From Clostridiales bacterium (GTDB taxonomy: Bacteria > Bacillota > Clostridia > Christensenellales > Pumilibacteraceae): 35,491 bases of DNA. The translations under genes were made by a program, and so were the position numbers. The notes beneath the pieces were generated by a model that ran no database searches, was not told the origin of the DNA, and was given only the letters and a program-made list of their open reading frames with translations. This document shows positions 14,308-31,971 of this stretch, in pieces (positions within the stretch are counted from its first letter, which is position 1; each line of letters begins with the position of its first letter). The stretch is from contig JAIDCZ010000018.1 of the NCBI GenBank assembly GCA_029055565.1, forward strand, positions 1 to 35,491. The letters are read 5' to 3'.

Positions 14308-16251
14308 TTACGCAATGGTAAGCGCGCTTGCGGTAACGCGTATCGCCGGAACGACGCCTACCGATGCGGTATCGACTGACGAGAGTCCGCTTGCACCGCT
14401 CGGCGTTCCAATATCAACGTTTACCGCACTGTCCCATAAAGGCGAGCGAAGCCACCACTTTCCGCGACCGTACGTAGCCGGCTGGTAGCCCATCATATAC
14501 GTGCCGTTAGCGCGAGCGTAGTCGCTTACGAGGAGCATGCGCAATTCGTCTTGCTCGCCGCCATCGGCTACGAAGCCGTACGCGCTGTTGAGAACCTCTT
14601 TATAGCTGGGTAGGAAAACCTTGTCTTGCGTATTTTCGCATGCGTACATGTTTTCCGACTTGCCGGTAGTCGCCGCGCTGTTATCCACCGCGGTGGTTAT
14701 TATGCTCTGTTGCTGCGCCGCGCTGAACGCTACGTTGTAGAACGTGCCGTTAAGCCAAGTGCGAATATCGCTGTGCGCGTAGTTGTTGGAATACACGGTG
14801 GCGCCGCCTATCTCGCGGTTGTCTTGACTGCTGTAGTACGCGCCGTGGTCGATAATGGTATCGCAAAGCAAAAACGCCACGCCGTCATTATTTTCCAAAA
14901 CGCGCCATTTAATAGGCTCGACCTTAAAGTAGTACGTATTGCCGTCAACTATATTCTCGTCGTTAGCGAACTTGTAAGGGTCCCAAGTACCCATGCTGGT
15001 AGTGGCGGCCGTCACCTTGGCGTACCGAGCGCCGTCGTTGCCGGCATAATATCCGTTGGCGTCGGCAGTATTGCCCACCGTCACGTCGGCGGCCTTAAGC
15101 GATTGCGGGTACTCGCCGTAATACACGTACTTGCCCGCCTCTTGCGTTTGGCGCACGAAAGCGCAAGTGCCGCATGTATTGCCGGTGCCGAAATCATGTA
15201 CGCCCCAGCCTTGCGACTCCTCCGCAATTATCGAATGTCCGCATGTAGCCGCATGCCAGTGGTGCGTTTCGTTGCTCAACCACTGCGCCGCAAACTTATG
15301 CTCATGCGCAAAGGTGTGAGTTTTGGACGCCGCCGCCGAATCGTTATATCCCGCCGCCTTGGCGATTACCGTGTACGTCTTGGTGCTTCCGTCGGGAATG
15401 GCAAAGCCGTTGGCCGCAAGGTCGACGCTGTTGGCGGTTACCGTTACGGTAGTCGTTCCGTCGGAAACGACGTAGCTCGTTGCGTTTTGCACCGCCGCCC
15501 ACGTCAACGTAGTTCCGCCGACCACAAGCCCCATCGGCATAGAAAGCGTGGTCGGTTGCGGAGGCGTAACGCTCGGCGTATACACGAACGAAGCCGCCGC
15601 CGAATCGGTGTAGCCGGCCGCCTTGGCAACTACGGTGTACGTAATGCTTCCGCTCGTAGGAACCTTTAGTCCGTTGGTGGCAAGCGCTATGGCGTTGGTG
15701 CTGATCGACACCGTTTTGGTTCCGTCGGAAACCGCGTAGCTCGTTGCATTTTGTACCGCCGTCCACGAAAGAACGCCGTTGCTCACCCTAAGTCCACTGG
15801 GCGTGGCAAGCGCCGTAGGCTGCGGCGGAGTGGGATTGTCGTCGTCCGGATCGACAACCGGCGGCGCGGGATTTTCATTCGGTATAAACGTGTGCGTCGT
15901 GGGTATGGATTCGTTTTTGCCGACGGCGCGCGCAACTATCGTTACTGTAAGCGTGCCCGAGGTATACTGCACGCCGTTGAATTCGGCGCGAGTTGCGGGC
16001 GCAATGCAGAGGTACTGCGCATCGCCAAACACGACCAAGTACTCTTGCGCACCGTTTACGGCGCCCCATTCTATGGTAAGCCGACCGTCGGTCAAGTCCG
16101 TTCTGATAGTGTTTTTATCGACTGAAGCAAGTCTGTCGTCACCGCCGTTGCCGCCCAACTCGGGAAGATCGATTGACGAGCAAGCTGCGGCAAACGTGAT
16201 CATAAGTACTGACAAAAGTCCTATAAGTAGACTTTTACACCACTTTTTCAT
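14308..16251 (-). CDS. Surface lipoprotein: three Fn3-like modules, Cys/His motif, DUF6273-like domain
   Basis: 647 residues from ATG 16251 (GGAGAG upstream). The signal peptide ends in A-A-A-C24, a lipobox, so it should be lipid-anchored outside. Three fibronectin-III-like modules follow (about 44-122, 148-225, 236-313); the second and third are close copies, both holding V-Q-N-A-T-S-Y and A-K-A-A-G-Y. Residues about 316-365 carry a Cys/His pattern (H316-x-H, H-H-W-H around 330-333, C337, C360-x-x-C363) that could bind a metal. The rest (about 372-643) matches DUF6273 as I know it: Y-Y-G-E-Y-P-Q, I-K-W-R-V-L, I-R-T-W-L-N and W-W-L-R-S-P. The function of that domain is not known to me. The longer frame from 16398 was rejected because it begins upstream of the promoter. 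Confidence 0.88.
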   Translation of the reverse strand: MKKWCKSLLIGLLSVLMITFAAACSSIDLPELGGNGGDDRLASVDKNTIRTDLTDGRLTIEWGAVNGAQEYLVVFGDAQYLCIAPATRAEFNGVQYTSGTLTVTIVARAVGKNESIPTTHTFIPNENPAPPVVDPDDDNPTPPQPTALATPSGLRVSNGVLSWTAVQNATSYAVSDGTKTVSISTNAIALATNGLKVPTSGSITYTVVAKAAGYTDSAAASFVYTPSVTPPQPTTLSMPMGLVVGGTTLTWAAVQNATSYVVSDGTTTVTVTANSVDLAANGFAIPDGSTKTYTVIAKAAGYNDSAAASKTHTFAHEHKFAAQWLSNETHHWHAATCGHSIIAEESQGWGVHDFGTGNTCGTCAFVRQTQEAGKYVYYGEYPQSLKAADVTVGNTADANGYYAGNDGARYAKVTAATTSMGTWDPYKFANDENIVDGNTYYFKVEPIKWRVLENNDGVAFLLCDTIIDHGAYYSSQDNREIGGATVYSNNYAHSDIRTWLNGTFYNVAFSAAQQQSIITTAVDNSAATTGKSENMYACENTQDKVFLPSYKEVLNSAYGFVADGGEQDELRMLLVSDYARANGTYMMGYQPATYGRGKWWLRSPLWDSAVNVDIGTPSGASGLSSVDTASVGVVPAIRVTASALTIA

Positions 16252-16288
16252 GCCATTCTCTCCTATATACATGTAATAGGTAAGTAGT

Positions 16289-16317
16289 ATTGTACCATAC
16301 CCACCTAACGGTGTCAA
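16289..16317 (-). promoter_or_regulatory. Promoter of the DUF6273 lipoprotein gene
   Basis: On the minus strand, consensus -35 TTGACA (16317-16312), a 17-bp spacer and -10 TACAAT (16294-16289). It lies between the lipoprotein and the 518-residue gene, so the lipoprotein can be expressed apart from the giant-protein operon. No clear terminator separates the two. Confidence 0.82.
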
Positions 16318-16420
16318 TACTTTTTTCAAATTTCCCGCCAAACTTACGAATAACGTATAATGCCGCAAAACGACGACGCCCGCCTTGCGGATTGTCAAGA
16401 CGAGCGCCGTTTGTTGCTAT

Positions 16421-17977
16421 TTACTTTTTGTCGGCAGTGCCGAACGGATTTTTTGCGGTCGTTTGCGAAATGCGGATAAGGCCGCGTTTTACCAGTACGT
16501 CGTTGGATCTGTACGGAGTGGTGTAGTCCACCGGTCGGCGTTCCGTCCTTACCGCGCCGCGCTCTTGCATAACCAAGTCGATAAGCTGTTTGGCGTAAGC
16601 GGTGCGCCTATCGCTCTTTATGCGGAACAGCAACGGCGTTTTGCGACGGCTTGCCGTTTCGGACATGTTTTCCACGTTGTACTTGGACCCGTCGAACCGC
16701 GTGGGGTCGGCGGCAAGGTACATACACAGCGTTTTGCCGCGAACCGAGAACGTGGCCACAGTGGTTCTGCCCACGGCGTACGTTTCGCGCCGCCAGCTTA
16801 TTCTGCTCTTTACACCCTTGTAATTGAGTATATAGTTTTTCAGCTCGGAGTATCTGGCCTTGAGCGCGTCATCCGCTTGGATTATCCTTGCGGTAAAGCT
16901 GCGGTCAAACACCATTTTGCCCTCGGGCGTATCGAACGTTATGTCGTCGTCCGACTCGTCGTCCCCGCCGTCCGCAACTCCGTCGCCGTCAACCGTGTCC
17001 GCCACGGTAAGCTCGGGTTCGGGCTCCGGCTCAAGCTCGGGCGCTTCGCCAAGCACCGTTATGCGCAAGGCGCCCATAACGAACAGCTCGTCGGGCGTGC
17101 GCTCGGATAGGTCTATCGGCGAAGTGTCCACCTTGTCGTCCAGCACCATTACGTTAGCGTCCGCAAGCTGCAATACGAGGTACTTTGAGAACTCCAGTCT
17201 GCGCTCGGAGGTCAGCTTGTACAAGAACGGAGTTTTTTCAAATCGCTTTTTGTCCGACTTGTCTATGCCGCGATGCCGAGCGTTTTCGTAATTTTGGGGA
17301 TTGAGCGCATACGCCACGCACAGCGTTTTGTTGCGGAACAGCACTATGGCGAGCGTTTTGCGCCCCTTGTATATGCGCTGTTGACGAAAGCTGGACTTTA
17401 TCTTAACGCCCTTGAACTGACGGAAGTCGGCAAGCAGCGCGTTGTACCGAGCCTTAACCTCGTCGTCCGCCGCGCGGAGCTTGGCCTCAAAGCCTTGCGC
17501 GTAACGCACGTAGTACCGCTTGCGGTCGAACTCCTCGTCCAAGTATCCGAGCTTGCGGCGGGTGTACTCCGACATATCCGCGACGGCAAGGATTTCGTTT
17601 TGCGTAATATCCTCGCCCTCGCCGAGCGGCACTTCGGCGGGCACGGCGTTCTCGTCGTCGCTGTCGTCGCCCTCCGTGTCCTCGTCGTCAGTCACTTCCT
17701 CTTCCTCGTCCTCTTGATCGTCCGACTTAGGAGTGACGATGGGCACACCGCCCTCCATAAGCGAACCGTCGTCCGTTATGTGCTTTAGGTGGTTCAACAG
17801 CTCCAGCCGCTTGTTTTGCAACTGACTGGTGCAAAGCTTGCGCTCTTGCTTGCGCCTATACACCGCGAATATAACCGCGTTGGCGATAAGCAGTAAACCA
17901 ACCAGCACGCCTACCGCCACCATAACCGCCACTTGCGCCGGTGTAAAAATCGATTCCGATAAAAACGTTGCGCTCAT
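16421..17977 (-). CDS. Membrane protein with duplicated cytosolic domain and acidic linkers, coupled to the giant protein
   Basis: 518 residues. One helix (about 15-40) followed by R-R-K-Q-E-R-K puts nearly all of the protein in the cytosol. Residues 86-110 are almost all D and E. A domain at about 155-308 is repeated at about 357-505, joined by a second acidic linker (311-349). Shared marks are K-A-R-Y (176-179; 373-376), Y/F-K-G-V-K, a basic S-F-R/S-W-R stretch, G-R-K-T/G-R-T-T, N/G-K-T-L-C, T-P-(F/L)-L-(Y/F)-(K/R), and a closing G-A-L-R-I/G-L-I-R-I. I have seen similar domains near large clostridial surface proteins but know no function. The start overlaps the giant gene's stop (TAATG), and its ribosome site GGAGGAG lies within the giant's last codons, so the two are translated together. 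Confidence 0.88.
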   Translation of the reverse strand: MSATFLSESIFTPAQVAVMVAVGVLVGLLLIANAVIFAVYRRKQERKLCTSQLQNKRLELLNHLKHITDDGSLMEGGVPIVTPKSDDQEDEEEEVTDDEDTEGDDSDDENAVPAEVPLGEGEDITQNEILAVADMSEYTRRKLGYLDEEFDRKRYYVRYAQGFEAKLRAADDEVKARYNALLADFRQFKGVKIKSSFRQQRIYKGRKTLAIVLFRNKTLCVAYALNPQNYENARHRGIDKSDKKRFEKTPFLYKLTSERRLEFSKYLVLQLADANVMVLDDKVDTSPIDLSERTPDELFVMGALRITVLGEAPELEPEPEPELTVADTVDGDGVADGGDDESDDDITFDTPEGKMVFDRSFTARIIQADDALKARYSELKNYILNYKGVKSRISWRRETYAVGRTTVATFSVRGKTLCMYLAADPTRFDGSKYNVENMSETASRRKTPLLFRIKSDRRTAYAKQLIDLVMQERGAVRTERRPVDYTTPYRSNDVLVKRGLIRISQTTAKNPFGTADKK

Positions 17978-20900
17978 TATTCGGCTCCTCCTTCGGTTGC
18001 ATTCGGCTTTTTGGCAGTTGACTTTTTGGCGGTAGTCGTAGACTTCTTTGCCGCAGTCGGCTTATCCGCAGTCGATTTGGTTGCGGTCGACTTGGTTGCG
18101 GTCGACTTTTTGGCGCCGCTCGATTTTTGAGTGGGCGATTTTTGGATAGCGCCGGACTTCTTTGTCGTCGAAGTCTTTTTGGCCGTCGGTTTTTTCGTCG
18201 GCGCGTCTGCCGGTTGCTCGGCCGGTTTCTCGGCCGGTTGTTCCGTCGGCGTTTCCGCGTTTAGCGCGGTTTGGGGTTCGGAGCTTTCCGCCGCGCTTGT
18301 CGTTGCGGCTTGCTCGCCCGCTGGTTCGGCCGCTTGCTCGGCCGTTTCGCTCGTCGGCTCGGTCTGGGCGGTCGTCGGGGCTTGCTCGGCCGCTTTGGCG
18401 CCGTCGGCGTTTTCTATGGCTTGCATAGCTTCCGCGGCAATGCGCTTTTTGCGTTTGTTAAGCAAGATCTGAACGACTATCAACGCCGCCGCCGCTACTA
18501 CCAATACGCCTAGCACGGTGATAATTGCTATAAACACCGTATCGGAGCCGACTATCGACCACTTGATGGTGAACGGCTTGTCGTCGCCGGTTGCCCATTC
18601 GTAATTTTTGGTGTCCTTGAGCGTGATTTTGGCGTAGAACGTGCCGCCGTAGCTGTACGCGTTGTTTTCTATATTCATTACGCTCGAGTCGAAGCCGATG
18701 GGAATATAGATAATTGTACTGCCGTTGACGATTTTCGTACTGCTGTCGTGAGTGGGCTTGGCAATCTTTTTGCGCGCCACTACCCAAGTGAGTTGAAGGG
18801 TGCCGTCGCCGTCGGTATCGCCCGCGCTCCAGCAGTAGTTGTTGGCGTTGAAAAGCGTTACGGAAACGGTGTACGTGCCGGCGTAGAGCGCGAACACGGT
18901 AACGGAGTCGCCAAGCGACTGAATGTTACCGGCGTACGCAATTTGCATAAGCTGAGGATTGAACCCGACTATGCCCGAAGCGAGTACGGAGCCGGTGTAA
19001 ACGTCGTTTTTGCCGTTGCCGTCGGTGACGACGGTAAGCGACGGCGCCGTAACTACGAACTTGGCGATCTCGAACGCAACCGGTTCGCCGACGAACGCGC
19101 GGTAGTTTTGCGATTCGGCCACCGTTACGCGCACGTAGTAGGTGCCGGCGTTGCCGTTTTCGGGCACTGCGCTCGTGTACGTTTTGCCGTCCGCCGAGTA
19201 CTGATAGATAATGTTCTCACCCGACAAGACGGTTGCCGACGGCGCGTTGAGCGCGGGATCGTAGCGGCCGTACTGCCAGCCGACGATAACGAGGTCGGCC
19301 GTTTGCTTATTGCTCGCCTTGGTAATGGTAAAGGTGAGCGTGATAGAAAGGTCGGACGTGCTTGACCACACGTAGTTGGCGTGGTCGGTAAGCGATACGG
19401 TAACGCTGTGGTTGCCCGCGTCGGTAAAGGCGCACGCCGTCATTTGGTAAACGGACTTGTCGTACATGGGCTTGGTGCCTTGCTGACGAACGTCCACGCG
19501 CGGCTCGATAGGCGCGCCGGTGTAGACTGCCGAGCCGATAAAGAACGCGGTGGAATCCACTACCTTTTTGGCGATTTCGAAGTCTATGGACGGAGTGCCG
19601 ATAAGCCTATAGTTGGAGCTGGCGCCGACGAGCGTTGCAACGTACGCGCCGGCAGCAGTGGGAACGTCAAAGCTGTCGTAGCCGTTACTTCCGGTAAAGC
19701 GGATAACTAACTGCAAGTCGTTTTTGACGAACGCTTGGTCGGCGGCCGCGTTGGCTATTTTTATCTCGCCCGCCGTCGCGCCCTTGATGTTCTTGTCGCC
19801 GTAGGTTATGTTTTCTTGACGAACGAGCTCTACCTCTATTTCCAACGGATTGATTACGTACAACGCGCGGTGTTGGGTAAGCACGTAGTTGGTGCCGTCG
19901 TACGACTTGACGGTAATCCAGTAGGTACCGCCCGCCGCGCTCTTGGCGGTAGCGTCCGTTTCAAACACTATGCCAAGCACCGATTTGTCCTCGCCGTCCG
20001 CAAGGCCGACCGCCGTGTACTGCACGTCGGTAAGCACCGGCGTTACCGAGTAGTCGGACGACTTGCCGTCAATCGTTACTGTGACTGCGCGCTTGGTTAT
20101 GGTAAGCGTGCCGCGCGCCGCCTTTACTATATAGTTACTGCCCGCGTCTATGCCTATAACCTCGTCGTTGGCGTCGGTTGCAAGAATAATCTCGTACGCG
20201 CCGCCGGCGTTGTAGTTGGCATAGGACTGAGCGTAGTCGTAGCTGTATGCGCCGATAGTCGGACGGTAGCCGTACAGCAAGCCGCTTATGGTAAGCTCGT
20301 CAAAGCGGGTGTCACTGAGCTTGGTGCCGTAAATCATACTGCCGGACACCGAAGCGGTAACCGTTTTGGGCACTATGCGGAAGCTACCCACCGTCGCCTT
20401 GTCGGTAAAGTTTCTGCCGGTAAGGTCGGTTACGGTGGCGAGCAACCAGTACTCGCCCGCGTCGATAGCGCGCGACGCGGTATCGTACGCCACCCAGCCG
20501 GTAGCCGTGACTGCGGGAACGTTATCGTCCGTCTTGGGCATGCGGTACAATCTTACCGTGCCGTTGTAGCCGGCTTTGACCGTTATGGAATTCGCGTTGA
20601 ACGCGCCGCCGTAAACGACGTCGTCAACTACCGTCGGGAACTCCACTACCGGACTGTCCTCGGTGCCGTTGGCCGTTACGTCCTTGTTGATTTTCCAAGT
20701 AAGGGTGAGCGCGCCCACGGAGTCGTCGGAGAACTCGCCGCCGATTTCGCCCGTCTTATCCCACACGTTGTTGGTGGGGTCGATAAGTATAAACCGAACG
20801 TTGTACGTGCCGACGGCGGTCGCCGTAAAGGTGGCCTTGCCGTTGGCGGCCGTCATGTTGCCGCCTGTCGTAGTCAGCTCGGGGCGCATATACGCCGTTT

Positions 20901-23900
20901 CGTAGTCGATAACCACGTTTTGCGCACTGCCGTTAAAGGTGCAGTCGGCTATGCTCGTTTGCGGCGCGGTTATTACGCGCTTGGCTACGTAGAACACGTA
21001 GAATCTGCGCGTTATTACGTCGTCCACTCTGTACATAGCGGAAAGCACGTAGTAGCCGGCGTTGAAATTGGTAGCGTTGCTCAAATCGCCGTACTCGAGG
21101 TCGTCGTCCTTTTCAAAGCCGAGGCCCGCCTTACTGGCCGCCGCAAACGCCGCGCCGTTGGCCGAAAGCACCGGTGCGTAAGTGAGCGTAAGGCCAGTGG
21201 TAGCTTCGCCGCCGTTTACCAGCACGGTAACCTTGCTCGGCTGATCGCCGTAGGTAAAGTCCGCCATTTGAATGGTCATAACGACCTTGTTTTGGCTGAC
21301 CGCAAACGTAACGTTAATCTCGTCGGCAATGGCGCTGTCCAACGTTATGTTGCCGAGCGCGCTGTCCTTGAGCACGAACGAAATGGTGTACGTGCCGATT
21401 TCACGCCCGAAGGTGACGAACATCTTTTGGTTTTCCACGTAATAGGTGCCGAGCGTGTTTTTGTCGCCCGCCGGTATTTGCGTGCCGTCGCCGGTGGCCG
21501 AGGTGTACACGAAGCGCACTACCCTAAAGTAATCGTCCACGTACCGCTCGATATAGTTGGTAAACTTTTCGTCGTCAAGGTTATCCAGCGAGTACGAAAC
21601 GGTGTCCCAGCCGAGGTTGGCTTCCCTAAGCACGAGCTTGTTTACCGCGAACTTTAACGTGCAGCTATTGCCGCCGTCAAATACGTAGTTGCTGTTTGCG
21701 CCCAGCGTAACGGTAACGTTGTAGTTGCCCACAAAGGTAGGCGCCGCGCCGGCCGCTTGGTAGTTGCCCGTCTTTACGGTGTCGTAGCGGAGTGTGAACG
21801 ACGGTCTGTACGCCGCAGCGTCCACGTTAGCGTCGTTGCCGAATACGTCCACGAAGGTTATTACGGCGTTATGACTTTTGCCGTACAAGCCGCCGTTATA
21901 GTTGGTGCCGTCAAAGCCGAAGGTTTGGTCTTGAGTAGTCGCCTTTATCTTGCGCGGGGCAAGCTTGAGCGAGGCGTCTATTACGCCCACGATCTCGTAG
22001 TTTTGGAAGGTCGCGGCGGTGGGCGCGTATTCGTTTTCGCCCTCGCGCATGGCAAGCGATACGGTATAGGTGCCGCAGCTGCTGTCCCACGCCTTGTACG
22101 CAACGCCCTTGCCGTCCGTTATGGTGAATACTATATTTCTGTTGCCGAGCAAGGCGTTGAATTTGTCGTTGCCTTGCATACCGTTCACCACGTAGGTAAG
22201 CGTGCCCACGTTGTTCACGTCCCTATCGACGAGCGTGTCTATAGTCTGTCCGTATATATAGGAATACACGCCGCCTTGCGTAACGTGTGCGGAAAGCGTG
22301 AGCTTTGCCTTGCTTACGCAGAACTTGGGATTGGCCGCGTTGGTAAACGTAACTACGTAGTTGGTGTTGTTTGCCGCGGCAAAGGCAAACTCATGCTCGC
22401 CCACGTTTACGCCGTCGGGCAGACTTACCGTTATGCCGAGATTGGTGCGGTCGTCGCCCGAAGCGCCGAACACTACCTTTTCGTCCGCAACGTATATATA
22501 TGAATTTACGTTTTGGTTAAAGCTTAATACGAGCGCGTTGTGCGTTGCGTCGTGGCCGCCGAGGTAGTAGCACCACGCGTTGGCGTTGTGCTTGGCGGGG
22601 TCGGTTTTGTTGGCCTCGTCCCAGCCGACCATGGTCACGGTAACCTCGCGCTTTCTTATAGTCAAGGTAGCGCCTACCGCAACGATATTCACGTTGGCGT
22701 CCGACTTGCATACCGGAGTTATGGTGCACGACGAACCGGAAACCGCGGTCTGCGGCGTGTAGCCTACCGTAGAATATCCGACTACGTTGTCGTTGAGATA
22801 CGCGGCAAGCGTGCCGGCAAGCAACGTCGGGGAGATTGCACCGTAGGTAAAGCCGTCGAACCTACCGCTCTCCTCTGCGCCGCCCGCCGCCTTGTCGGTT
22901 GCCACTACGCCGGACAGCGTGGTGCCGAACTGAACGGCGGTAGCGTTGGCCGTAAGCGTGAGCGTGGCGGGAGTTATAGTGAACACTATATTAAGGTTGG
23001 CCGCGGTGTAGTTGGGATTGTCCGATCTGCCTATTGCTTGGTACTCGCCTACGCCCACTACTTGATTGGCTGCGATTGCGGCAAACTTGCCGTCTGCGCC
23101 CTTTTTGGTATAGGTAAAGGTGATGGGCGTTGCGGCGGTATCGTCCAGCGTTGCCACGTAGTAGTTGGTAGCGCCGCTGTACACCGTGCTTGCCGTATCT
23201 ATCCTTACGCCGTCCACGTCGTGGAAAACGCCGTACTGCTTAACGCCGAATATAGCCTTTGTTATTACGTACGAGCCGGCGTTATTGACCGTGCCGGCGT
23301 TGCCGATAGCCGTGGTATCCGCGCTCTCCTTGTTGGAGCAGTCGGCAAAGCTGACTTCGTAGTTAAGCTCGGCCACGCCCGCGCAGAACACGGCGTAAAT
23401 GGTGTAGCCCGTTACGTTGCCGTCGGCGTCGAACTTGACGTTGTTGGTATTTCTGTCCGCGCCCTCTCCCACGATAGCCGCGGTCTTGAGCGTAATCACC
23501 GTCTGGTTGTCGTTGTCGAAAACGCCGTTTGCGGGCGCAGTGCCATCGACGAGCTCTGCAGTATAAATAGATCCGCTCGTCACCGTAAATGTAAGCGTCT
23601 GCACTTGCTCGGTGAAATTGTCCGCGCCGCGAAGGTTGTAGGTGTTTTGCTTATCCGCAATGCTTACCGTAATCTTTCGCGGAACGACGGTGAGCATTAC
23701 GTCCTCGTACGTAACCGCGTAGTTGGTAAACGAATCAGAATCGGTAGCGCCGTTTGCTTTGCCGCTTACGTAAACGCGGTAGTCGCCCACGGTATTGCCC
23801 TTGACGTACACGGTGGCGTAGGTCGGCACTGCGCCGAGCGCGGTCACTATATCGTCCGCCGTCGCGCCGGCCTTGGAGCTGTTGACAACCAGCCCCTCGC

Positions 23901-26900
23901 TATTATCGGTAAAGGCGGGAACATCACTGCCGTACTGTATTTGCGCGGGAACCTCCGCCTTGACGGTAAGCGCGCGCTTGGCTACGCGGAACGCGTAAAC
24001 TGCGGTAAAGCCGTTGTAGTTTCTGGTATCCTCCATTGCAACGCCGAGCATGTAGTTGCCCGCGTTAAGGCCGTTGCCCGCAAAAAGCTCGGCTAACATG
24101 CCGGCAACGGTATCGGCCGCGTCGGCGGCAACCGTTTTGGTAAGCACGCTGTCGTCGTTGTAGAACAGCGTAAAGGTGATTTTGCCCACCGCGTTAGCAG
24201 ACTCGCCGGTGTACTTGAACGTAGCCTCCGGCTCGACTACGGCGTTGGCGCCGTCGGGGTCGAAGCCGTTTTCCACCTTGTAGCCGTAAGTCCAAGCGAC
24301 GGTCGTAACGGTCGCGCCTTGAAGCACTACGCTGTTGTTTTGGAAGTTGAACGCCGTCTTTAGCGCGTTGTCGGCCGCGGTAATAACCACTCGGCGGTAG
24401 TCGAGTACCGTCGCGTAGTTGGGATTGGAAAGCGCAAAGTACACGTAGTATCTGCCGGCGTCTCTATACGCGGGCGCCGTCGCACTTAGCGTTAGCTTTT
24501 CAAATTCCGACTTGGTGAGTACGGTCAACTGCGTAGTCGATACGCGGTACTCCACGGCAACGGAAGTGCCGTCGCTTGCGGTGGCAAATACAACGCCGTC
24601 AGTCGGGTCGCCGTTTTGCTCGACGGTATTAACGCCGTCTACTATAATGCCGTGCCACTTTTCGTCGTACTCGCCGGTATAGCCCGCAATCGTGGTTTTA
24701 ACGTTGAGCGCGGCGGGAGTTATCTCGTACTTGCCGCAAGTGCCGTTGGCCGAAGCGACGAGCTTGCCGCCCGCAACCGTCCAGCCGCCGACGAACTTAA
24801 CGTCGTACTTGTCGGTGAATATAGCCGTGCCGGAAATTGCGTAGCCGCCCGCCTTGCCGGTGGTGGAAGTGCCCACCTTTTCGTCGTGCGCGGTAGTGGA
24901 AACGGCAAATATATCGTCGAAGCTTTCTGTCGGCACGTAGTTGTAGGACGCGACGTAAGTTGACTGCGGCATCTCCACGGTAAAGCCTACGCCCGCCGTG
25001 CTTGCCGACGGAATACGGCTCAAGTTTTGCTCGTTGTACTCGACCGAAAGATCGTTAATATCCACAACCAGCGTAACCCTTTTGACGGTGAGCACGCCCG
25101 CTTCGCCTACGAAGTCGTAGTTGTCGCAAGTGAGCGTGGGCTTGCCCGCCTCTGTTGCGATAAAGTTGATTGCATGCGTGGCGGCAGTGGTTGCGGTATT
25201 GCTGTAGCCGTCCACCGAATACTTAACGTCGCCCGCAATATTGTAGAACGAATCGGCCGCATTGTAGAACAGATCGCGGTCGGCCTTGCCGCCGTTTGCG
25301 CCGACGAAGCCGGTAACCGTCCAGCCGCTGTTTGCTTTGCGCAGATTGCTAAGTCCGAACATGTACTCAATCGACGCGGGGTCGTCCTCGCCTATCATTA
25401 TAGTCAAGTCGAACTTAACTGTAAGCTCGGCCTTGCCGACGGTGACGGTAATATTTTTGGTAAGCGCGGTATGGTTCTTTGCGGTTACCTTTATTACGAA
25501 GTCGTACGAGCCGGCGTTCTTTATCGTCGGGCTTTGGGTAAACTCGGTAAAGGTAGCGCCGCCGTCGCTCGAGTACGACCACACCGGCGCGTTGGCCGCT
25601 ATTTCGGGATTGCCTATAACTACGGCGTAGCCGTCCTTAAGGAACTTTTGATTGCCGCCGTTGTAGGTAAGCGTTTGGGCGGCAATGGATTCGCCGTCCT
25701 CCTCGATTGCCTTGGCGGTTACGCTATACTTGTACGCCTCGTGCGTAATAGTGGTCGCGCCGTCGGCCGCCGCAGTCGTGCCAAACGTAATGGCATAGTT
25801 GCCGCCGCGCTTGGCGTTTATCGTAAGAACTATATAGTAGTCGCCTACGTCGGTCTTGCTCGTAATAGCCGCGTTGCCGTTCATTGCGGCGATTGTAAAC
25901 ACGTCGGCTTCGGTATCGACCGAAAATGCGCTGCCCTCGCCGCCGCTTGTAAGCGCTACGGTGTACTCAATATCGGCAATATCCTCGCTGTAAACGCTGG
26001 TCGGATTGGCGGTTACCGTAACGGTTATCGCGCGTTTTTGCACGGTAAGCGCCGCTGCCGTAACGGTGGTTATATTATAGTTTTCGCTTGCGCCGTCGTT
26101 GCCGTCAAACGCGGGAACGAGCGTGTACGTGCCGCCGTAAACTACGCCATGCGTATCGGTCAAAACGGTGGTGCCGGCCTTTACTTGCATTACTATAAAC
26201 GCCAAGCCGTCGCGGCTGTAGAACTGCGCCAAGGTTTGCGCGGTCAAGCAATCGCCTGCCGCAAAAATCAACTCGTCGCCGTACGTATGGGTCTGCGCCG
26301 TAGCGGTAAGCGTAACGTCCTTAGGCGTTATTTCAAAGTCAATCAAGTACTCGCCGAGCGCAAAGTTGTCGTCGTCACCCGCCGAAAATTCGACGGTGTC
26401 TATAGCGTACTCTGCCGCGTCGATAAACGCCGTTTTGTTCGGAATAGCTTGCGCCGCAAATGTAAGAGTGGGCGCAGTAGGCGTTTCGCTTGCAGTCTTT
26501 TTGGGCAAGTTGGTCACGGCTGTGGTCGGCTTTTGCTCGGCGCCGTTATAGGTAGCAGTAAACTTGCCGCCGTCCGTTTTGGTTTCGCCGCCGAACGTCC
26601 ATTCCAATATTATTTCGCGCTTTTTTACCGTAAAGCTGCGGGTGTCCGCCCACTTTTGGTAGGCTTCGGAATCGTCGAATTCTATAACGATTTCGGCCTC
26701 GTAGTCGCCCGCCGCCCACGGCAAGCCTTCCACGAGATCGGTTATCGGCGTAGGCTGGCGCTTGCCGCCCACTACCTTGTAGAACGTATAGGTGGGCGCC
26801 TTGTGCGCGGGGAGCTTGTCAATAACCTCGTCGCCTTGCGTTACCGCCGCGTCGTGATTTTTGTAATCGAAAACCTTGTTGTCGCCGTTGGCGTTGGTAT

Positions 26901-29900
26901 AGTCAAGCACCACCTTATCGGCGGAGGCAATAACGGTATCGCCTATCGCATAGCCGTTGTCGCCGTAGGTGTAGTCGGTTACGGTAAGCACCACGTCAAG
27001 CTGAGTGGCGGTAACCGCGTACAGCAAGTACACCCTGGCGCCGTCCGCCACGGTGTATTCCGTTTTGTACACCTTACCGTCGATTTGGGATATAAAGCTG
27101 CTCTTTAAAAAGCTTTTGCCGTCGGCGCCGTCCGGCTCCACAACCCATTCGTAGTTGTACTTATCGGTTGCGGTAAGCAACACGAAGTACTGACCGCGCA
27201 CGGTGTTGTCCGGTTGCGTAGCTTGCGTGTTATTCAGCCCGCCGTCGTCGCGCGAGCCGTACGCCACGGTATACGTCATGCCGTCGGTCGAGCCGGTGAA
27301 TATAGTGGACAGCGGGTCGTAGGTCTTGCCCGCTTCCATAGCGCGCATGTCCTTGAGCTGAGGCGCCGCAACGACCTTGCGGTTGACCGTCAAGCCGTCG
27401 TCCCAAGCGCAAGTGTAAGCCTCGGTATCGGTAAACGCGCTCTCCTTGCCGTCGCCCAGCCAGCAGTAGTCAGCCGAATCGGTAAGGGTAAACGTAACGG
27501 CGTAAACGCCGGCCGCGTAATACGTAAGCTTGCCGGTAGCCGTGTCGAACGCATACTTAGCTGTATCGCTCGTATCTACTGTAAGAGCCGCGGCACCGGC
27601 GGTAGTTCCGTCGGTAAACCACGCGCTGTCAAGCTTGGCGGTTACCGCCGCGGTAAACAGCGTGCCGTTTTTCCACTCGGCTTGCTCGGTAGCGGCGTTG
27701 CCGTACAGCGAAGCGCCGATCGTGGTCGCACCGCCGTTAAATTCCGCACTGCCAAACGCGCTCTTATCGAGGGTGGGTTTGGCAAGCGCCTTTTTGTTGA
27801 TAGTGAACTTAATGGAATAGTCCGATCTCGTATCGTCTATCTTGTAGTTGAGGTTGTTAAGCACCGCCGCGTAAACGGTGTACTCGCCCGCGCTCGCCTT
27901 GGTTATATCCGCAACGGCGGCACCGGCCTTTTCGTAGCCCAGCGTAACGGTTACGCCGTCGCCGGCCTCGGCGTTGTTCACCGTAGGCGCGGGCTGGGTA
28001 ACCTCGCCGTAGGTGGTTTGGTGCGCGGTCGCGCCCCAGCTTATTGCCACCGTCTTTTGCGTTATCTTAATAGTATAGGTAAGCGTTTCGTCGGCCGTGC
28101 CGGTCGCCCAAGCGTAGTTGTCGGCCGGCTTTACCGTAATCGTATACGCCGTCACTTGCGTTTTGTCGGAATTCCAAAGCACGTCCTTGCACAGCGGGTC
28201 GTTGCCGTTGCCGTCAAGCTCTATCTCCAAACGCAAAACGCCGTTAAAGTAGTAGTCGTTAAAGTCACGAATGAATTGGGAAAGCTTGTAGCCGTCGCCA
28301 CGGTACGTGACCTCTATATCGTTACCGGTTATAACCACGCCGTCGCCGCCGTCCAGCACCGGACGCGCAATGGTCTTGGCGTAAATCTCGAATACCGTTG
28401 CAATATTCGTAATCTCGGTCGCGCTCGTTTCGGGCAAGTAGTAGTTGGGCGCCGCCGTGCCGCCTATTGCGGAAACGACTATGCGGTAATACCCTACCGC
28501 CGTCACGCTCGAAATTTCGTCGAACGCCGCATTATCCTTATATAAGGTATAGCCGTCTACGGTAAGGTTTACGTTGTCGGTTGCGTACGCGTTTACCGTC
28601 GCCTCGGGCGTGGACTGCGCGGTCTTACCGCCGTCAAATACGTAACGCGGATACTTGGTATCGTCCGTCTTGTCGAACGTGCCGCCAAAGCTGTTAAAGC
28701 CGTCCGACCACGTTACCTTCATTGCCGCGCGGTTAAGCACGTACTCAAGCGTAAGCGTGCGTAGCTTGTCGGTCTCGGTCGTTGCGCCCGCCCACTCGTA
28801 GTTGTCATGATCGGCAATATCCACTTTTACGGTGTACTTGCCGGCATTGGTCACGCCGAATATATTTCGCGCGTTGGTGGGCGTGTTATCGTCGGGCACG
28901 GTAATGCCGCCGGACACCGGTGCGTGTCCCGCCTCCAAGCCGCCGACGGTAACCGTCGTTATCGTAAGCGCGTTAAAGTTCCAGTTGCCTATCGTCTTGT
29001 TTTGCGAAGCGGAATCGTAAGTATCGGTCATTCCGGTTATATCGACGTCGGTCAAAACGGTAAGCCGTTGCTTAGCCACGTAGCCTTGATAGGAATAAGT
29101 GTAAACGGCGTTGCCGGAATCGTCCGTCGGGTACCAAAGGCTGTTTGCGCCGTCCGTTTGTTGCCAAGAATAATTATTGTTGAGCGTTATCGTTACGGTG
29201 TAATCGCCCGCGTAGTTCACCTTGAACTTTCCGCCCGCAAAGCCGGTTACCGTTTCGACGGAAGCAGTGTTAAAGGTGACGTACTTAATAGTAACGGTTA
29301 TTATGGCCGAGCCGTCCGCCGCAGTGTTGGCCGAGTCGTCGCCTATCCAGTTTTTCAGCTCGTACTCTTTGCCGGTCGCGCCGTCGTCGTAAGTGTACAG
29401 CAATTTGGCGGTGGCGCCGGTCAGTACCCAGTCGGTCGCCGTCACGTCGAGATAGGGCGCGATTATGGGCGAGGCCGTTACCGAAATTTCCTTGCGCACC
29501 ACCGGCAGAGTAAAGTCAACCTTGGTGCCGGCAGTCGCCGCGGCAGTTTCCTTGCCGTCGCCCGCCGCCATGTTTTGGTTAGCGGTAAGCTCTATTACGT
29601 ATCTGCCTACCTCCAGCTTTTCGCGGTCGGTCGCAGTAGCGATAACCACTTCGTCGCCCTTGTTGTCCGTTTTGGTGGAATCGTATTTATAATACTTTAC
29701 GGTATAGTCGGTGGCAAGCGCGCCGGTATTGCTCGGGTAGTAGGTCGCGCTCTTGGAGTTTACGTTGATTTTGGGGTCGGCGCCGGTCGTGCCGTATAGC
29801 CAGCCTTGCGCGGTAAAGTCGAACGCTGAATCCTCGTTGGTCTTGATTGCAAAGGTCACCGTGTCGGTTAGCTTTTCGCCGGTCAGCTGATAGTCGTTGC

Positions 29901-31971
29901 GGTACTTGGCGGTCGCGTCGTTTTTGATTTCGACGGTTACCGAGTAATTATCCGCATGGCGGAATTTGGTGGCCGCGGTTACCGCGCCGCTACCGTCCGT
30001 CACGCTCAAAATATCGAGCGCCGCGTCGCCGTAAGGGAAGGTGCTCGCGCCGGCGTTGGGAACGATAAAGTCGTTAATCGTCCAATCGGTACGCGCAAAC
30101 GTTTTGAACGGTATGGTAGTGTTTATGGTGTACTTGGTTACTTCAAACGCCACCGCGTCGGAGGTAGCCGATTTATACCCGCCGTTTTCGTAGGTGGTGG
30201 CAACCGCGTAGTAGGTGCCGACATGCTTGGGCTTGCCGTCGGAATTGAGATCGGCGGCAGTCAACGGCGTGTTTACGGTTGCGTCGGTATACGCGCTGTA
30301 GTACTTCAAGCTGTAGTGCCACGCGTTGTCGTCGGTGGCGTATGCGTTGGCCGCGGTGGAAGCGGGCACTTCCGTCCACGTTTTGCCCATGTTCACTTCC
30401 GCGCCGCTCGCGGGATCGGCTATGGTCGCGCTAAGCGTGCCACTGCCGTTGGACGTGCCGTATTCGACGTCGGCAATGGCGGCAAGCGTGGCTTTGGGCT
30501 GACCCTTGTCTACTTGCACGGTAAACGTCATAGTCATGTTGTCGCCCGACTGCGTGCCGTTGAAGGGCGAACCCCACGCAAAGTCGCCGTCCTCGGGCAA
30601 TATAACCTTTATAATATACTGGAAGCCGGCAGAAGGGAAAGTGACGGTTACTTGCCCGCCCGAAACGTCGCCTACCATATCGTCAAGTTCCGCACTGCTA
30701 AGCGACGTGGTTGCGCCGGTTACGGTGTTGCGCTTGTCTATGGCGATATAGGGTGCGGGCGCGTCGCCCGTGTCGGTGTGAAGATTAGCAAAATCCCAGT
30801 CGGTTATATCTACGGTAGCGCCCTCGTTCCAGTCCACCGTCGTGCTTGTGGCGTTTATGCCGGCGGGGAATGTGGGCGTATGTATGGATATACGACCTAC
30901 ACTACTGTTAAAGGTTCGCGTTTGGGTAGAGCCTACGTCGGGATAGTTAAAAGTTATCTCTATCTTTTTGACCGACGTGCTAAGCACGGGCTTGCCCGCG
31001 GCGTCCTTTACTTCGTTGTCGTCGGCGTCCTTGCAAACGTAAGTAATGTAATCGGACGGAAATACGGAAAGCGGAACGGTAGCCTCGGCGCCGGAATCGT
31101 AATATACGGAAATAGACAAACCGTCGACGTTAAGCTGTTTGCTTCTTGCCACTTGCCGAGGAATGGATGTACCGGTTATGCGGTTGTTTATGTCGTCCGG
31201 CCGAGCAAACTTAATGTCGGTAATAAGCACCGACGTGGAAACCGTTTTGGCGTCACTGCCCTCGCCTATCTCGGCAAAAACGGTTATATCCTTGTCATAC
31301 GTTTGAGCACCGTTGATTATGGCTGTAGTCAATGCGGACGGAAAAAGGTCGCCCTCGACGCGGCTTACGTCTACCGTACCGCTAAGATTTACCGAGCCGT
31401 CATTGTACGTTCCGCGCACGGTAAGGCACGCCAAAAAGCTGTCGTCAAGACTGGTGGCGGTGGTGGTTTCAAAACCGGCCGTCGGGTGGTACTCGGCGGT
31501 TATGCCGCTCAATACCACGCGGTTGGGGTCGGACAAAGTATACGCCGCGGACGTGCCGGACTGGGAAGTCGGATCGTAGTCGCTGCCCGAGGGCGTGACC
31601 GTAGCGGTAACCGTGCGCGCCGTCTTGTTGCGCGTAAAGGCTACCGTCTCGCCGGTGGTCGCCTTGTTGCCGGTTACTTGAAGCGTGCGGGTCAAGTCCT
31701 CGCCGCCGTCGTTGTCGGTATACGTAACGGTCACGCGCACCATGCGGTACAGCGCGCTGTCCGGCGTGTTGGCCGTAAAAATCCAGTCGTTGTTAAACGA
31801 CACGGACACCGTTTTAAGCTCGTACTTGTACGAGGCTCGAACGCCGCCGCCCTCAGCCGTGGCGCCGAACCCAAAGTTAGCAAACAGCGCACAGCAAAAA
31901 AGAACGGCACTGAAAAGTATCGTTAACAGCGTAGTCAGCAAACGATTTCTTTTAGCGGTCATATGTTCCAT
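17977..31971 (-). CDS. Giant surface protein (4,664 residues) with MBG-like repeats, one C-terminal membrane helix and a basic cytoplasmic tail
   Basis: The signal peptide is residues 1-39 (K/R-rich start, hydrophobic core, A-T-A end). Then come some 4,400 residues of Ig-like beta modules of about 90-120 residues, probably about forty. Many open like MBG/YDG domains with T-Y-G-D (T1668, T1896, T3573, T4056) and are joined by (K/R)-R-x-(I/V/L)-T-V linkers. Another type ends N-Y-x-W-x-x-G and T-L-x-W-x-I. One helix (4479-4504) is followed by K-R-K-K-R, placing the last 159 residues in the cytosol: first an E/P/A/Q-rich part, then from about 4590 a K/A/T/P-rich stretch like histone H1 or AlgP. 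There is no LPXTG motif or lipobox. GGAGG lies nine bases before ATG 31971. Such proteins usually serve adhesion or envelope architecture; the ligand is unknown. No frameshift was seen in 14 kb. Confidence 0.93.
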   Translation of the reverse strand: MEHMTAKRNRLLTTLLTILFSAVLFCCALFANFGFGATAEGGGVRASYKYELKTVSVSFNNDWIFTANTPDSALYRMVRVTVTYTDNDGGEDLTRTLQVTGNKATTGETVAFTRNKTARTVTATVTPSGSDYDPTSQSGTSAAYTLSDPNRVVLSGITAEYHPTAGFETTTATSLDDSFLACLTVRGTYNDGSVNLSGTVDVSRVEGDLFPSALTTAIINGAQTYDKDITVFAEIGEGSDAKTVSTSVLITDIKFARPDDINNRITGTSIPRQVARSKQLNVDGLSISVYYDSGAEATVPLSVFPSDYITYVCKDADDNEVKDAAGKPVLSTSVKKIEITFNYPDVGSTQTRTFNSSVGRISIHTPTFPAGINATSTTVDWNEGATVDITDWDFANLHTDTGDAPAPYIAIDKRNTVTGATTSLSSAELDDMVGDVSGGQVTVTFPSAGFQYIIKVILPEDGDFAWGSPFNGTQSGDNMTMTFTVQVDKGQPKATLAAIADVEYGTSNGSGTLSATIADPASGAEVNMGKTWTEVPASTAANAYATDDNAWHYSLKYYSAYTDATVNTPLTAADLNSDGKPKHVGTYYAVATTYENGGYKSATSDAVAFEVTKYTINTTIPFKTFARTDWTINDFIVPNAGASTFPYGDAALDILSVTDGSGAVTAATKFRHADNYSVTVEIKNDATAKYRNDYQLTGEKLTDTVTFAIKTNEDSAFDFTAQGWLYGTTGADPKINVNSKSATYYPSNTGALATDYTVKYYKYDSTKTDNKGDEVVIATATDREKLEVGRYVIELTANQNMAAGDGKETAAATAGTKVDFTLPVVRKEISVTASPIIAPYLDVTATDWVLTGATAKLLYTYDDGATGKEYELKNWIGDDSANTAADGSAIITVTIKYVTFNTASVETVTGFAGGKFKVNYAGDYTVTITLNNNYSWQQTDGANSLWYPTDDSGNAVYTYSYQGYVAKQRLTVLTDVDITGMTDTYDSASQNKTIGNWNFNALTITTVTVGGLEAGHAPVSGGITVPDDNTPTNARNIFGVTNAGKYTVKVDIADHDNYEWAGATTETDKLRTLTLEYVLNRAAMKVTWSDGFNSFGGTFDKTDDTKYPRYVFDGGKTAQSTPEATVNAYATDNVNLTVDGYTLYKDNAAFDEISSVTAVGYYRIVVSAIGGTAAPNYYLPETSATEITNIATVFEIYAKTIARPVLDGGDGVVITGNDIEVTYRGDGYKLSQFIRDFNDYYFNGVLRLEIELDGNGNDPLCKDVLWNSDKTQVTAYTITVKPADNYAWATGTADETLTYTIKITQKTVAISWGATAHQTTYGEVTQPAPTVNNAEAGDGVTVTLGYEKAGAAVADITKASAGEYTVYAAVLNNLNYKIDDTRSDYSIKFTINKKALAKPTLDKSAFGSAEFNGGATTIGASLYGNAATEQAEWKNGTLFTAAVTAKLDSAWFTDGTTAGAAALTVDTSDTAKYAFDTATGKLTYYAAGVYAVTFTLTDSADYCWLGDGKESAFTDTEAYTCAWDDGLTVNRKVVAAPQLKDMRAMEAGKTYDPLSTIFTGSTDGMTYTVAYGSRDDGGLNNTQATQPDNTVRGQYFVLLTATDKYNYEWVVEPDGADGKSFLKSSFISQIDGKVYKTEYTVADGARVYLLYAVTATQLDVVLTVTDYTYGDNGYAIGDTVIASADKVVLDYTNANGDNKVFDYKNHDAAVTQGDEVIDKLPAHKAPTYTFYKVVGGKRQPTPITDLVEGLPWAAGDYEAEIVIEFDDSEAYQKWADTRSFTVKKREIILEWTFGGETKTDGGKFTATYNGAEQKPTTAVTNLPKKTASETPTAPTLTFAAQAIPNKTAFIDAAEYAIDTVEFSAGDDDNFALGEYLIDFEITPKDVTLTATAQTHTYGDELIFAAGDCLTAQTLAQFYSRDGLAFIVMQVKAGTTVLTDTHGVVYGGTYTLVPAFDGNDGASENYNITTVTAAALTVQKRAITVTVTANPTSVYSEDIADIEYTVALTSGGEGSAFSVDTEADVFTIAAMNGNAAITSKTDVGDYYIVLTINAKRGGNYAITFGTTAAADGATTITHEAYKYSVTAKAIEEDGESIAAQTLTYNGGNQKFLKDGYAVVIGNPEIAANAPVWSYSSDGGATFTEFTQSPTIKNAGSYDFVIKVTAKNHTALTKNITVTVGKAELTVKFDLTIMIGEDDPASIEYMFGLSNLRKANSGWTVTGFVGANGGKADRDLFYNAADSFYNIAGDVKYSVDGYSNTATTAATHAINFIATEAGKPTLTCDNYDFVGEAGVLTVKRVTLVVDINDLSVEYNEQNLSRIPSASTAGVGFTVEMPQSTYVASYNYVPTESFDDIFAVSTTAHDEKVGTSTTGKAGGYAISGTAIFTDKYDVKFVGGWTVAGGKLVASANGTCGKYEITPAALNVKTTIAGYTGEYDEKWHGIIVDGVNTVEQNGDPTDGVVFATASDGTSVAVEYRVSTTQLTVLTKSEFEKLTLSATAPAYRDAGRYYVYFALSNPNYATVLDYRRVVITAADNALKTAFNFQNNSVVLQGATVTTVAWTYGYKVENGFDPDGANAVVEPEATFKYTGESANAVGKITFTLFYNDDSVLTKTVAADAADTVAGMLAELFAGNGLNAGNYMLGVAMEDTRNYNGFTAVYAFRVAKRALTVKAEVPAQIQYGSDVPAFTDNSEGLVVNSSKAGATADDIVTALGAVPTYATVYVKGNTVGDYRVYVSGKANGATDSDSFTNYAVTYEDVMLTVVPRKITVSIADKQNTYNLRGADNFTEQVQTLTFTVTSGSIYTAELVDGTAPANGVFDNDNQTVITLKTAAIVGEGADRNTNNVKFDADGNVTGYTIYAVFCAGVAELNYEVSFADCSNKESADTTAIGNAGTVNNAGSYVITKAIFGVKQYGVFHDVDGVRIDTASTVYSGATNYYVATLDDTAATPITFTYTKKGADGKFAAIAANQVVGVGEYQAIGRSDNPNYTAANLNIVFTITPATLTLTANATAVQFGTTLSGVVATDKAAGGAEESGRFDGFTYGAISPTLLAGTLAAYLNDNVVGYSTVGYTPQTAVSGSSCTITPVCKSDANVNIVAVGATLTIRKREVTVTMVGWDEANKTDPAKHNANAWCYYLGGHDATHNALVLSFNQNVNSYIYVADEKVVFGASGDDRTNLGITVSLPDGVNVGEHEFAFAAANNTNYVVTFTNAANPKFCVSKAKLTLSAHVTQGGVYSYIYGQTIDTLVDRDVNNVGTLTYVVNGMQGNDKFNALLGNRNIVFTITDGKGVAYKAWDSSCGTYTVSLAMREGENEYAPTAATFQNYEIVGVIDASLKLAPRKIKATTQDQTFGFDGTNYNGGLYGKSHNAVITFVDVFGNDANVDAAAYRPSFTLRYDTVKTGNYQAAGAAPTFVGNYNVTVTLGANSNYVFDGGNSCTLKFAVNKLVLREANLGWDTVSYSLDNLDDEKFTNYIERYVDDYFRVVRFVYTSATGDGTQIPAGDKNTLGTYYVENQKMFVTFGREIGTYTISFVLKDSALGNITLDSAIADEINVTFAVSQNKVVMTIQMADFTYGDQPSKVTVLVNGGEATTGLTLTYAPVLSANGAAFAAASKAGLGFEKDDDLEYGDLSNATNFNAGYYVLSAMYRVDDVITRRFYVFYVAKRVITAPQTSIADCTFNGSAQNVVIDYETAYMRPELTTTGGNMTAANGKATFTATAVGTYNVRFILIDPTNNVWDKTGEIGGEFSDDSVGALTLTWKINKDVTANGTEDSPVVEFPTVVDDVVYGGAFNANSITVKAGYNGTVRLYRMPKTDDNVPAVTATGWVAYDTASRAIDAGEYWLLATVTDLTGRNFTDKATVGSFRIVPKTVTASVSGSMIYGTKLSDTRFDELTISGLLYGYRPTIGAYSYDYAQSYANYNAGGAYEIILATDANDEVIGIDAGSNYIVKAARGTLTITKRAVTVTIDGKSSDYSVTPVLTDVQYTAVGLADGEDKSVLGIVFETDATAKSAAGGTYWITVKSYDGTNYVLTQHRALYVINPLEIEVELVRQENITYGDKNIKGATAGEIKIANAAADQAFVKNDLQLVIRFTGSNGYDSFDVPTAAGAYVATLVGASSNYRLIGTPSIDFEIAKKVVDSTAFFIGSAVYTGAPIEPRVDVRQQGTKPMYDKSVYQMTACAFTDAGNHSVTVSLTDHANYVWSSTSDLSITLTFTITKASNKQTADLVIVGWQYGRYDPALNAPSATVLSGENIIYQYSADGKTYTSAVPENGNAGTYYVRVTVAESQNYRAFVGEPVAFEIAKFVVTAPSLTVVTDGNGKNDVYTGSVLASGIVGFNPQLMQIAYAGNIQSLGDSVTVFALYAGTYTVSVTLFNANNYCWSAGDTDGDGTLQLTWVVARKKIAKPTHDSSTKIVNGSTIIYIPIGFDSSVMNIENNAYSYGGTFYAKITLKDTKNYEWATGDDKPFTIKWSIVGSDTVFIAIITVLGVLVVAAAALIVVQILLNKRKKRIAAEAMQAIENADGAKAAEQAPTTAQTEPTSETAEQAAEPAGEQAATTSAAESSEPQTALNAETPTEQPAEKPAEQPADAPTKKPTAKKTSTTKKSGAIQKSPTQKSSGAKKSTATKSTATKSTADKPTAAKKSTTTAKKSTAKKPNATEGGAE

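Follow-up and report, generated by a model that had tools for sequence, protein, structure and literature searches.

A giant surface protein and its small membrane partner as a probable two-chain transmembrane unit in an order of gut Clostridia

Introduction

Giant surface proteins are usually regarded as self-contained fibres or adhesins. The stretch of DNA analyzed here (35,491 nucleotides in full, hereafter the window) raises the question of whether such a protein can be one chain of a larger unit. On its minus strand, a gene encoding a giant of 4,664 amino acids (aa) (positions 17977..31971) runs into a gene encoding a membrane protein of 518 aa (16421..17977), which we call the partner and which holds two copies of a domain of approximately 150 aa, termed D. 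An earlier note on this DNA proposed that the two proteins form a complex linking a surface fibre to a cytosolic double domain, and that a basic tail of the giant binds acidic stretches of the partner. Here, we show that, across many genomes of one order of gut Clostridia, such a giant has a genetic link to a cytosolic head; judging by the record titles, this order is known largely from metagenome assemblies.

Results

The gene pair and its locus

Both open reading frames (ORFs) described in the earlier note were present, on the minus strand, and they overlap by one base, in the TAATG of GCCGAATAATGAGCG. A ribosome-site-like sequence, AAGGAGGAG, precedes the start of the partner and lies within the last codons of the giant. 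The giant, defined by its ORF and translation, has orthologues in the loci L034, L036, and L037 (65–68% identity), together with more distant ones, and the partner, when used as the query, had a match in 34 of 61 genomes, its own included. The pair recurs in other genera of Pumilibacteraceae, the family of the window, and given this recurrence, the giant and the partner are not chance neighbors. The genome of the window also carries a second giant and D pair of another membrane class (3,365 aa and 324 aa; G000:C31, L055:2161-3135). Downstream of the pair, at positions 14308-16398 of the window, is a lipoprotein-like gene with a DUF6273 end; similar-looking genes adjoin the pair in L034, L035, and L036, and not in L037. 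By reading of the bases, a TTGACA/TACAAT-like element is located ahead of this lipoprotein gene, so the transcript of interest may comprise just the giant and the partner.

The giant and its conserved membrane end

The hydropathy of the giant showed an N-terminal segment (aa 11–29) and one C-terminal region (aa 4469–4506; 18454..18567, minus strand, as are all the features below), the latter made up of two abutting hydropathy windows and followed by NKRKKR. The N-terminal segment lies in a predicted signal peptide region (aa 1–40; 31852..31971). Between these two ends, the ectodomain stalk (aa 41–4466; 18574..31851) carries repeated MBG-like domains. The Pfam model MBG_2 (PF18676) reached 24.3 bits against a gathering score of 25, with its best stretch at aa 3963–4034, and a profile iterated from this stretch gave 16 matches between aa 877 and 4379. 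Giants differ widely in size, and the 31 complete ones spanned 1,430–5,583 aa. An LPXTG-type motif ahead of a C-terminal helix is the mark of sortase-anchored surface proteins, and by reading, no such motif was found just before the C-terminal helix of the giant in the window or in the aligned relatives.

The identity of the giant to its distant orthologues in L039 and L040, which are of other genera, and in L043, which is of the genus of the window, was 17–32% in the stalk up to aa 4059 and 34–40% at aa 4060–4459, compared with 47–51% at aa 4400–4467 and 37–49% in the membrane region (aa 4468–4510). The membrane end of the giant is therefore better conserved than its stalk. The conserved membrane-proximal stretch (aa 4391–4467; 18571..18801) contains the pattern W.IVG..TVF, of which the W, G, V, and F were invariant in 18 of 18 rows; the C-terminal helix is preceded by WSIVGSDTVF in the window and by W.(I/V)(V/T)G...VF in the aligned relatives. 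Past the helix, the giant ends in a K/A/T-rich, predicted cytosolic tail (aa 4590–4664; 17980..18204), where the earlier note had placed it; 19 K, 17 T, and 13 A were counted among its 75 residues, with a net charge of +16, compared with only +6 for the whole tail past the helix. The region aa 4546–4664 was 3–12% identical in L037, L039, L040, and L043.

The partner and the D domain

The partner starts with a SIFTPAQ motif and a membrane helix (aa 1–36; 17870..17977), located by hydropathy and by alignment with relatives. The helix itself (aa 18–36) is the only one in the partner, and YRRKQERK occurs within a few residues after it, so the earlier reading of both proteins as having a single helix with basic residues on the cytosolic side agrees with the hydropathy. 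It is followed by an acidic linker (aa 86–110; 17648..17722; 72% D/E, net −18), the first copy of D (aa 157–305; 17063..17509), a second acidic stretch between the copies (aa 311–349; 16931..17047; 44% D/E, net −17), and the second copy of D (aa 356–502; 16472..16912). The composition of the two acidic stretches bears out their earlier description as D/E-rich, and both copies of D were located with profile searches.

D is a common domain that neither Pfam nor NCBIfam models matched: among 42 copies, no convincing match to either collection was found, and the Pfam model of DUF5655 (PF18899) matched none of these copies at E-values up to 1, nor the window partner. Similarly, a search of the D profile against the sequences of the PDB gave no match at E-values up to 1. 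A profile of 84 D copies was then compared with five DUF5655 domains using hhalign, which gave a probability of 96 and an E-value of 3e-9 over 111 columns, against a probability of 0.4 for an unrelated control profile. On this profile comparison, D is a remote relative of DUF5655. The DUF5655 profile itself had no convincing match in the PDB (best E-value, 0.21), and an AlphaFold2 model of the second D copy had a mean pLDDT of 96.3 and a pTM of 0.89. A class-wide search for D reached two proteins that pass the Pfam cut-off for DUF5655; these have weak, below-cut-off matches to nuclease domains at their N-termini and no predicted membrane helix, whereas most D proteins have one. In the window partner, the scan with domain models found no known signalling domain. 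Lap-type membrane receptors have HAMP, GGDEF, and EAL domains, and none of these c-di-GMP domains was matched in the window partner.

Pairing counted from D and from the giant

To count the pairs from the side of D, we took 134 non-redundant D genes, drawn from the window and from 140 fetched regions; of these genes, 125 were judgeable and nine were not. The fetched loci include the best 80 of 187, and the sample leans to window-like D; the loci L174–L216 were left out of this count. All frames were considered, because greedy gene picking loses D genes to longer antisense ORFs. A split pair was defined as a giant of at least 1,000 aa, or one cut by the end of the locus, with a C-terminal helix and directly upstream of D, and a fusion as a protein in which the last helix before D lies beyond residue 400. 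By these definitions, 60 of the 125 judgeable D genes immediately followed a giant that has a membrane helix at its C-terminal end, 13 encoded D fused to an ectodomain in one chain, and 52 had no giant directly upstream. The counts are kept as computed, and the split pair in L044 is absent from them because its chosen start overlaps the giant. In 20 of the 60 split pairs, the two genes shared 1 or 4 bases, and two of the 13 fusions (L069 and L072) also had a giant directly upstream. In the search for relatives, 25 of the 34 D-bearing genomes had at least one pair or fusion (two pairs were entered by hand), with up to three pairs per genome (G004 and G012). With greedy picking, a giant was directly upstream of 56 of 119 D genes, compared with two of 770 other genes with a length of 200 aa or more; this control carries little weight, since D was the criterion for choosing the loci and no more than one gene can directly follow each giant.

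We also counted from the side of the giant, using a C-terminal signature of the class found in the window (A5) and a second one (A6); strong matches were those with E-values no higher than 4e-30 (A5) or 1.1e-42 (A6). In the 61 genomes, A5 had 12 strong matches and A6 had 17. Across the order, A5 had 15 strong matches in 14 of 297 genomes, eight of them new, and A6 had seven in six of 297 genomes, three of them new. All 20 strong places of A5 adjoined D, as did 18 of the 20 of A6, the other two ending at contig ends (G010 and G014). In total, D was adjacent in 38 of 38 judgeable places, and neither giant signature was found without D among them. Because the search models were built from pairs, the search of the 61 genomes is partly circular (20 of its 27 judgeable matches are rows of the models); of the 38 places, 24 are model rows and 14 are not. 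Most of the weaker A5 matches in the 61 genomes fell on repeats within giants or within other large proteins. In G050, there were seventeen matches to the membrane-proximal repeat of the giant, in frames of 1,552–1,982 aa.

The earlier note had asked whether the pair stays adjacent across clostridial genomes. Seen from the giant, it does for the classes searched; seen from D, the 52 genes without an adjacent giant show that D is not specific to giants, and this count led us to reject the idea that every D must be linked to a giant. These genes count against the unit, as does L205 (L205:2672-3556; G962:C3), where the protein encoded upstream, which the D gene overlaps, has only 627 aa and a window-class membrane end. 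The protein in L205 indicates that the upstream member of the unit need not be a giant.

Co-diversification of the membrane segments

In the 60 pairs, the membrane segments of the giant and the partner fall into matching classes. Their distance matrices were correlated (Mantel r = 0.91, with none of 2000 permutations as high), and the correlation was 0.85 after the similarity of D was removed. The correlations of the two segments with D were 0.63 and 0.69. We also compared pairs within one genome with pairs elsewhere, a swap test that reduces the effect of the history of the organisms; here, closeness of the giants matched closeness of the partners in 294 of 314 comparisons, and D itself was concordant in 255 of 314. 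These results show that the membrane ends of the giant and the partner travel together. Co-diversification alone does not prove contact between them, and block inheritance of both genes without contact can also produce it.

Charges in the tail, the linker, and D

A net negative charge was present on the linker between the helix and D in 116 of the 121 D proteins: in 58 of the 60 pairs, in all 13 fusions, and in 45 of the 48 proteins that have D and no giant upstream. Copies of D were net positive in 168 of 169 cases, compared with 39% of 646 background segments, and the charge of D was not correlated with the size of the linker charge (rho = 0.07, n = 96). Since the linker is acidic in the single-chain fusions as well, and D is almost always basic, the conserved opposite charges sit inside one chain, the partner.

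The earlier note had instead placed the opposite charges on two chains, with the basic K/A/T tail of the giant binding the acidic stretches of the partner and so holding the complex together. The charges in the window (+16 in the tail, −18 and −17 in the stretches) suit this idea, and both features are kept in L034 and L036. However, these two loci and the window are the only three of 14 aligned giants with the tail; it is absent from the other 11, including that of L037, which is 65% identical to the window giant and whose partner still has a linker of net −19. In the 60 pairs, the part of the giant after the helix was at least 40 aa long in 14 and at most 20 aa in 34, and had a charge of +5 or more in 17, whereas the linker charge was −10 or lower in 52; the tail lengths were measured from where the best hydropathy window ends and may include a few helix residues. 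When all 60 pairs were taken together, the charges of tail and linker were weakly and negatively correlated (rho = −0.27, p = 0.03); when only tails of 20 aa or more were considered, there was no correlation (rho = 0.08, p = 0.68, n = 27). The expectation that the charge pattern would be kept across genomes did not hold, as the two charges do not clearly co-vary. With a rare tail, no clear co-variation, and acidic linkers that persist without a separate giant tail, charge pairing as a general mechanism was rejected and is largely refuted, and we regard it as highly improbable that it holds the complex together.

D in other proteins and its distribution

In three genes (L066:1431-3641, L083:15827-17272, and L079:2049-4175), D is on the C-terminal side of a SipW-type signal peptidase I; the match to the model TIGR02228 was over the cut-off in L066 and L083 and below it in L079, and by reading, the genes in L066 and L079 adjoin genes with SipW-substrate-like N-termini. 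In L087:1602-3362, D is fused to an EAL domain (E-value, 2e-20). By reading, this copy seems to lack the usual EAL catalytic motifs and looks degenerate. Next to this gene are a series of small genes with one helix each and a frame of more than 3,500 aa. An end resembling uL15 (ribosomal L15/L18e) follows D in a further group of proteins: it passed the Pfam cut-off in L050 and L036, fell short of the NCBIfam cut-off in L153 and L163, and was recognized by reading in L116, L132, L150, L060, and L082. The D gene of this type in L036 (L036:18064-19662) lies just upstream of a giant. In L127, L130, and L157, D is followed by an acidic region and then by a shared C-terminal stretch around GVMFRRR.RKVYWFDPDGK. 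Finally, a stand-alone D protein is encoded downstream of a gene of 674–698 aa in L119 (L119:5466-6404), L122, L124, L143, and L161; the 674-aa gene was considered as a part of the system and rejected, because in L119 it encodes a class I lysyl-tRNA synthetase. The theme common to the D proteins may be the building or governing of the cell surface from inside.

Within the order of the window, the profile search detected D in 139 of 297 genomes. In a sample of the phylum, D was found in one of 398 genomes, that of the window, and in none of the other 397; in the class, nine of 391 genomes had matches, of which seven belong to the same order (the window's own included) and two are the DUF5655 proteins mentioned above. 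Seven pattern matches were found in viral contigs, and none was a relative of D. The named D-bearing relatives include Pumilibacter muris and P. intestinalis, a genus that NCBI places in Pumilibacteraceae, and P. muris CLA-AA-M08 (L101) carries the unit, which makes the coupling idea testable in a named strain. A typical pair was also present in L108, a record titled Anaeroplasma bactoclasticum, although the name of this bin may be wrong.

Discussion

The coupling of the surface stalk to the cytosolic double domain, which the earlier note had suggested, is well supported by giant signatures that occur only beside D where this can be judged, by the fusions, and by the co-diversification of the membrane ends. 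The two genes probably specify one two-chain transmembrane unit, joined at the membrane, with D as the cytosolic head. The giant would be a type I membrane protein, with a signal peptide, an MBG-like stalk, one helix, and often only a short basic stop, and the partner a small single-pass protein with its N-terminus outside and its C-terminus inside, carrying a flexible, acidic linker and between one and three copies of D in the cytosol. The chains would pair through their membrane-proximal ends and membrane helices, giving the outside stalk, which may serve in surface adhesion, a cytosolic D head that some relatives carry on one chain. The basic, DUF5655-like D would most likely dock the base of the stalk to a polyanion, a scaffold, or other D proteins inside the cell; the possible surface-building theme of the D fusions favors such a docking role. 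The acidic linker would act as a spacer and perhaps shield D. Three fusions count against this topology: in L047, L068, and L081, two further hydrophobic segments lie between the N-terminal one and D, and if both span the membrane, D would be outside. The simple split-or-fused picture also does not explain L069 and L072, where a fusion and an upstream giant occur together.

It might be argued that the giant and the partner are merely co-expressed and do not touch, the giant being an adhesin and the partner a regulator or an unrelated D protein made from the same transcript. D proteins without a giant upstream, such as that beside the class I lysyl-tRNA synthetase in L119, are consistent with this reading, and block inheritance could account for the co-diversification. 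However, 13 single-chain fusions, the linkage of all judgeable giant signatures to D, and membrane segments that follow each other more closely than they follow D speak against it, and we consider it improbable. The unit could also work from the inside out, with D sensing a cytosolic signal and altering the retention or presentation of the giant, in the manner of a Lap-like receptor without being one. The EAL domain of the D protein in L087 and the three D proteins that match SipW-type signal peptidase models, two of them beside substrate-like genes by our reading, point in this direction, but the EAL copy looks degenerate by reading, the partner has no known signalling domain, and the D proteins with EAL or signal peptidase domains are not the partners of the giants; inside-out control seems rather unlikely.

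A broader form of the two-chain reading is possible, and we put it forward tentatively: the pair may represent, in gut Clostridia, a split transmembrane receptor of a new class, in which cognate helices hold a DUF5655-like D under the base of the stalk, and the same D docks SipW-type signal peptidases, a degenerate EAL protein, and membrane proteins with uL15-like ends to one cytosolic hub, giving an order-wide coupling of the surface to the cytosol. The natural single-chain versions suggest the role of the two-chain version. The literature entries consulted on DUF5655, Pumilibacter, giant proteins of Clostridia, the MBG domain, and giant adhesins of Christensenellales and Pumilibacteraceae do not describe such a pair. 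If borne out, coupling by a giant and a small partner would be a so far undescribed way of linking the surface to the cytosol.

Among known families, DUF5655 (PF18899) resembles D in the profile alignment (111 columns, probability 96) and differs in that its Pfam model matches none of the 42 D copies. Surface proteins with MBG repeats (MBG_2, PF18676) resemble the window giant, whose stalk has at least 16 MBG-like repeats, whereas the giant has a membrane helix and a separate cytosolic partner, and its MBG_2 score (24.3 bits) falls short of 25. No LapG-type protease was found among the eight window proteins scanned. In the Lap system, the receptor LapD controls a large adhesin together with a protease and c-di-GMP (PMC3032545, PMC3032553, PMC5231407); as far as the consulted parts of these sources describe it, the likeness lies in a membrane protein, cytosolic in part, that governs a large adhesin, and the difference in the use of a protease and c-di-GMP, since the window partner has no match to a c-di-GMP domain. 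Giants have also been described in Mobiluncus mulieris, whose adhesin has 7,651 residues and 51 Ig-like domains (PMC10619420), and in Apilactobacillus kunkeei, which has giant extracellular proteins (PMC12863079). Although the available parts of these two reports mention no cytosolic partner chain, the window giant shares with both cases the thousands of residues of a surface protein, and with the Mobiluncus case the repeated domains.
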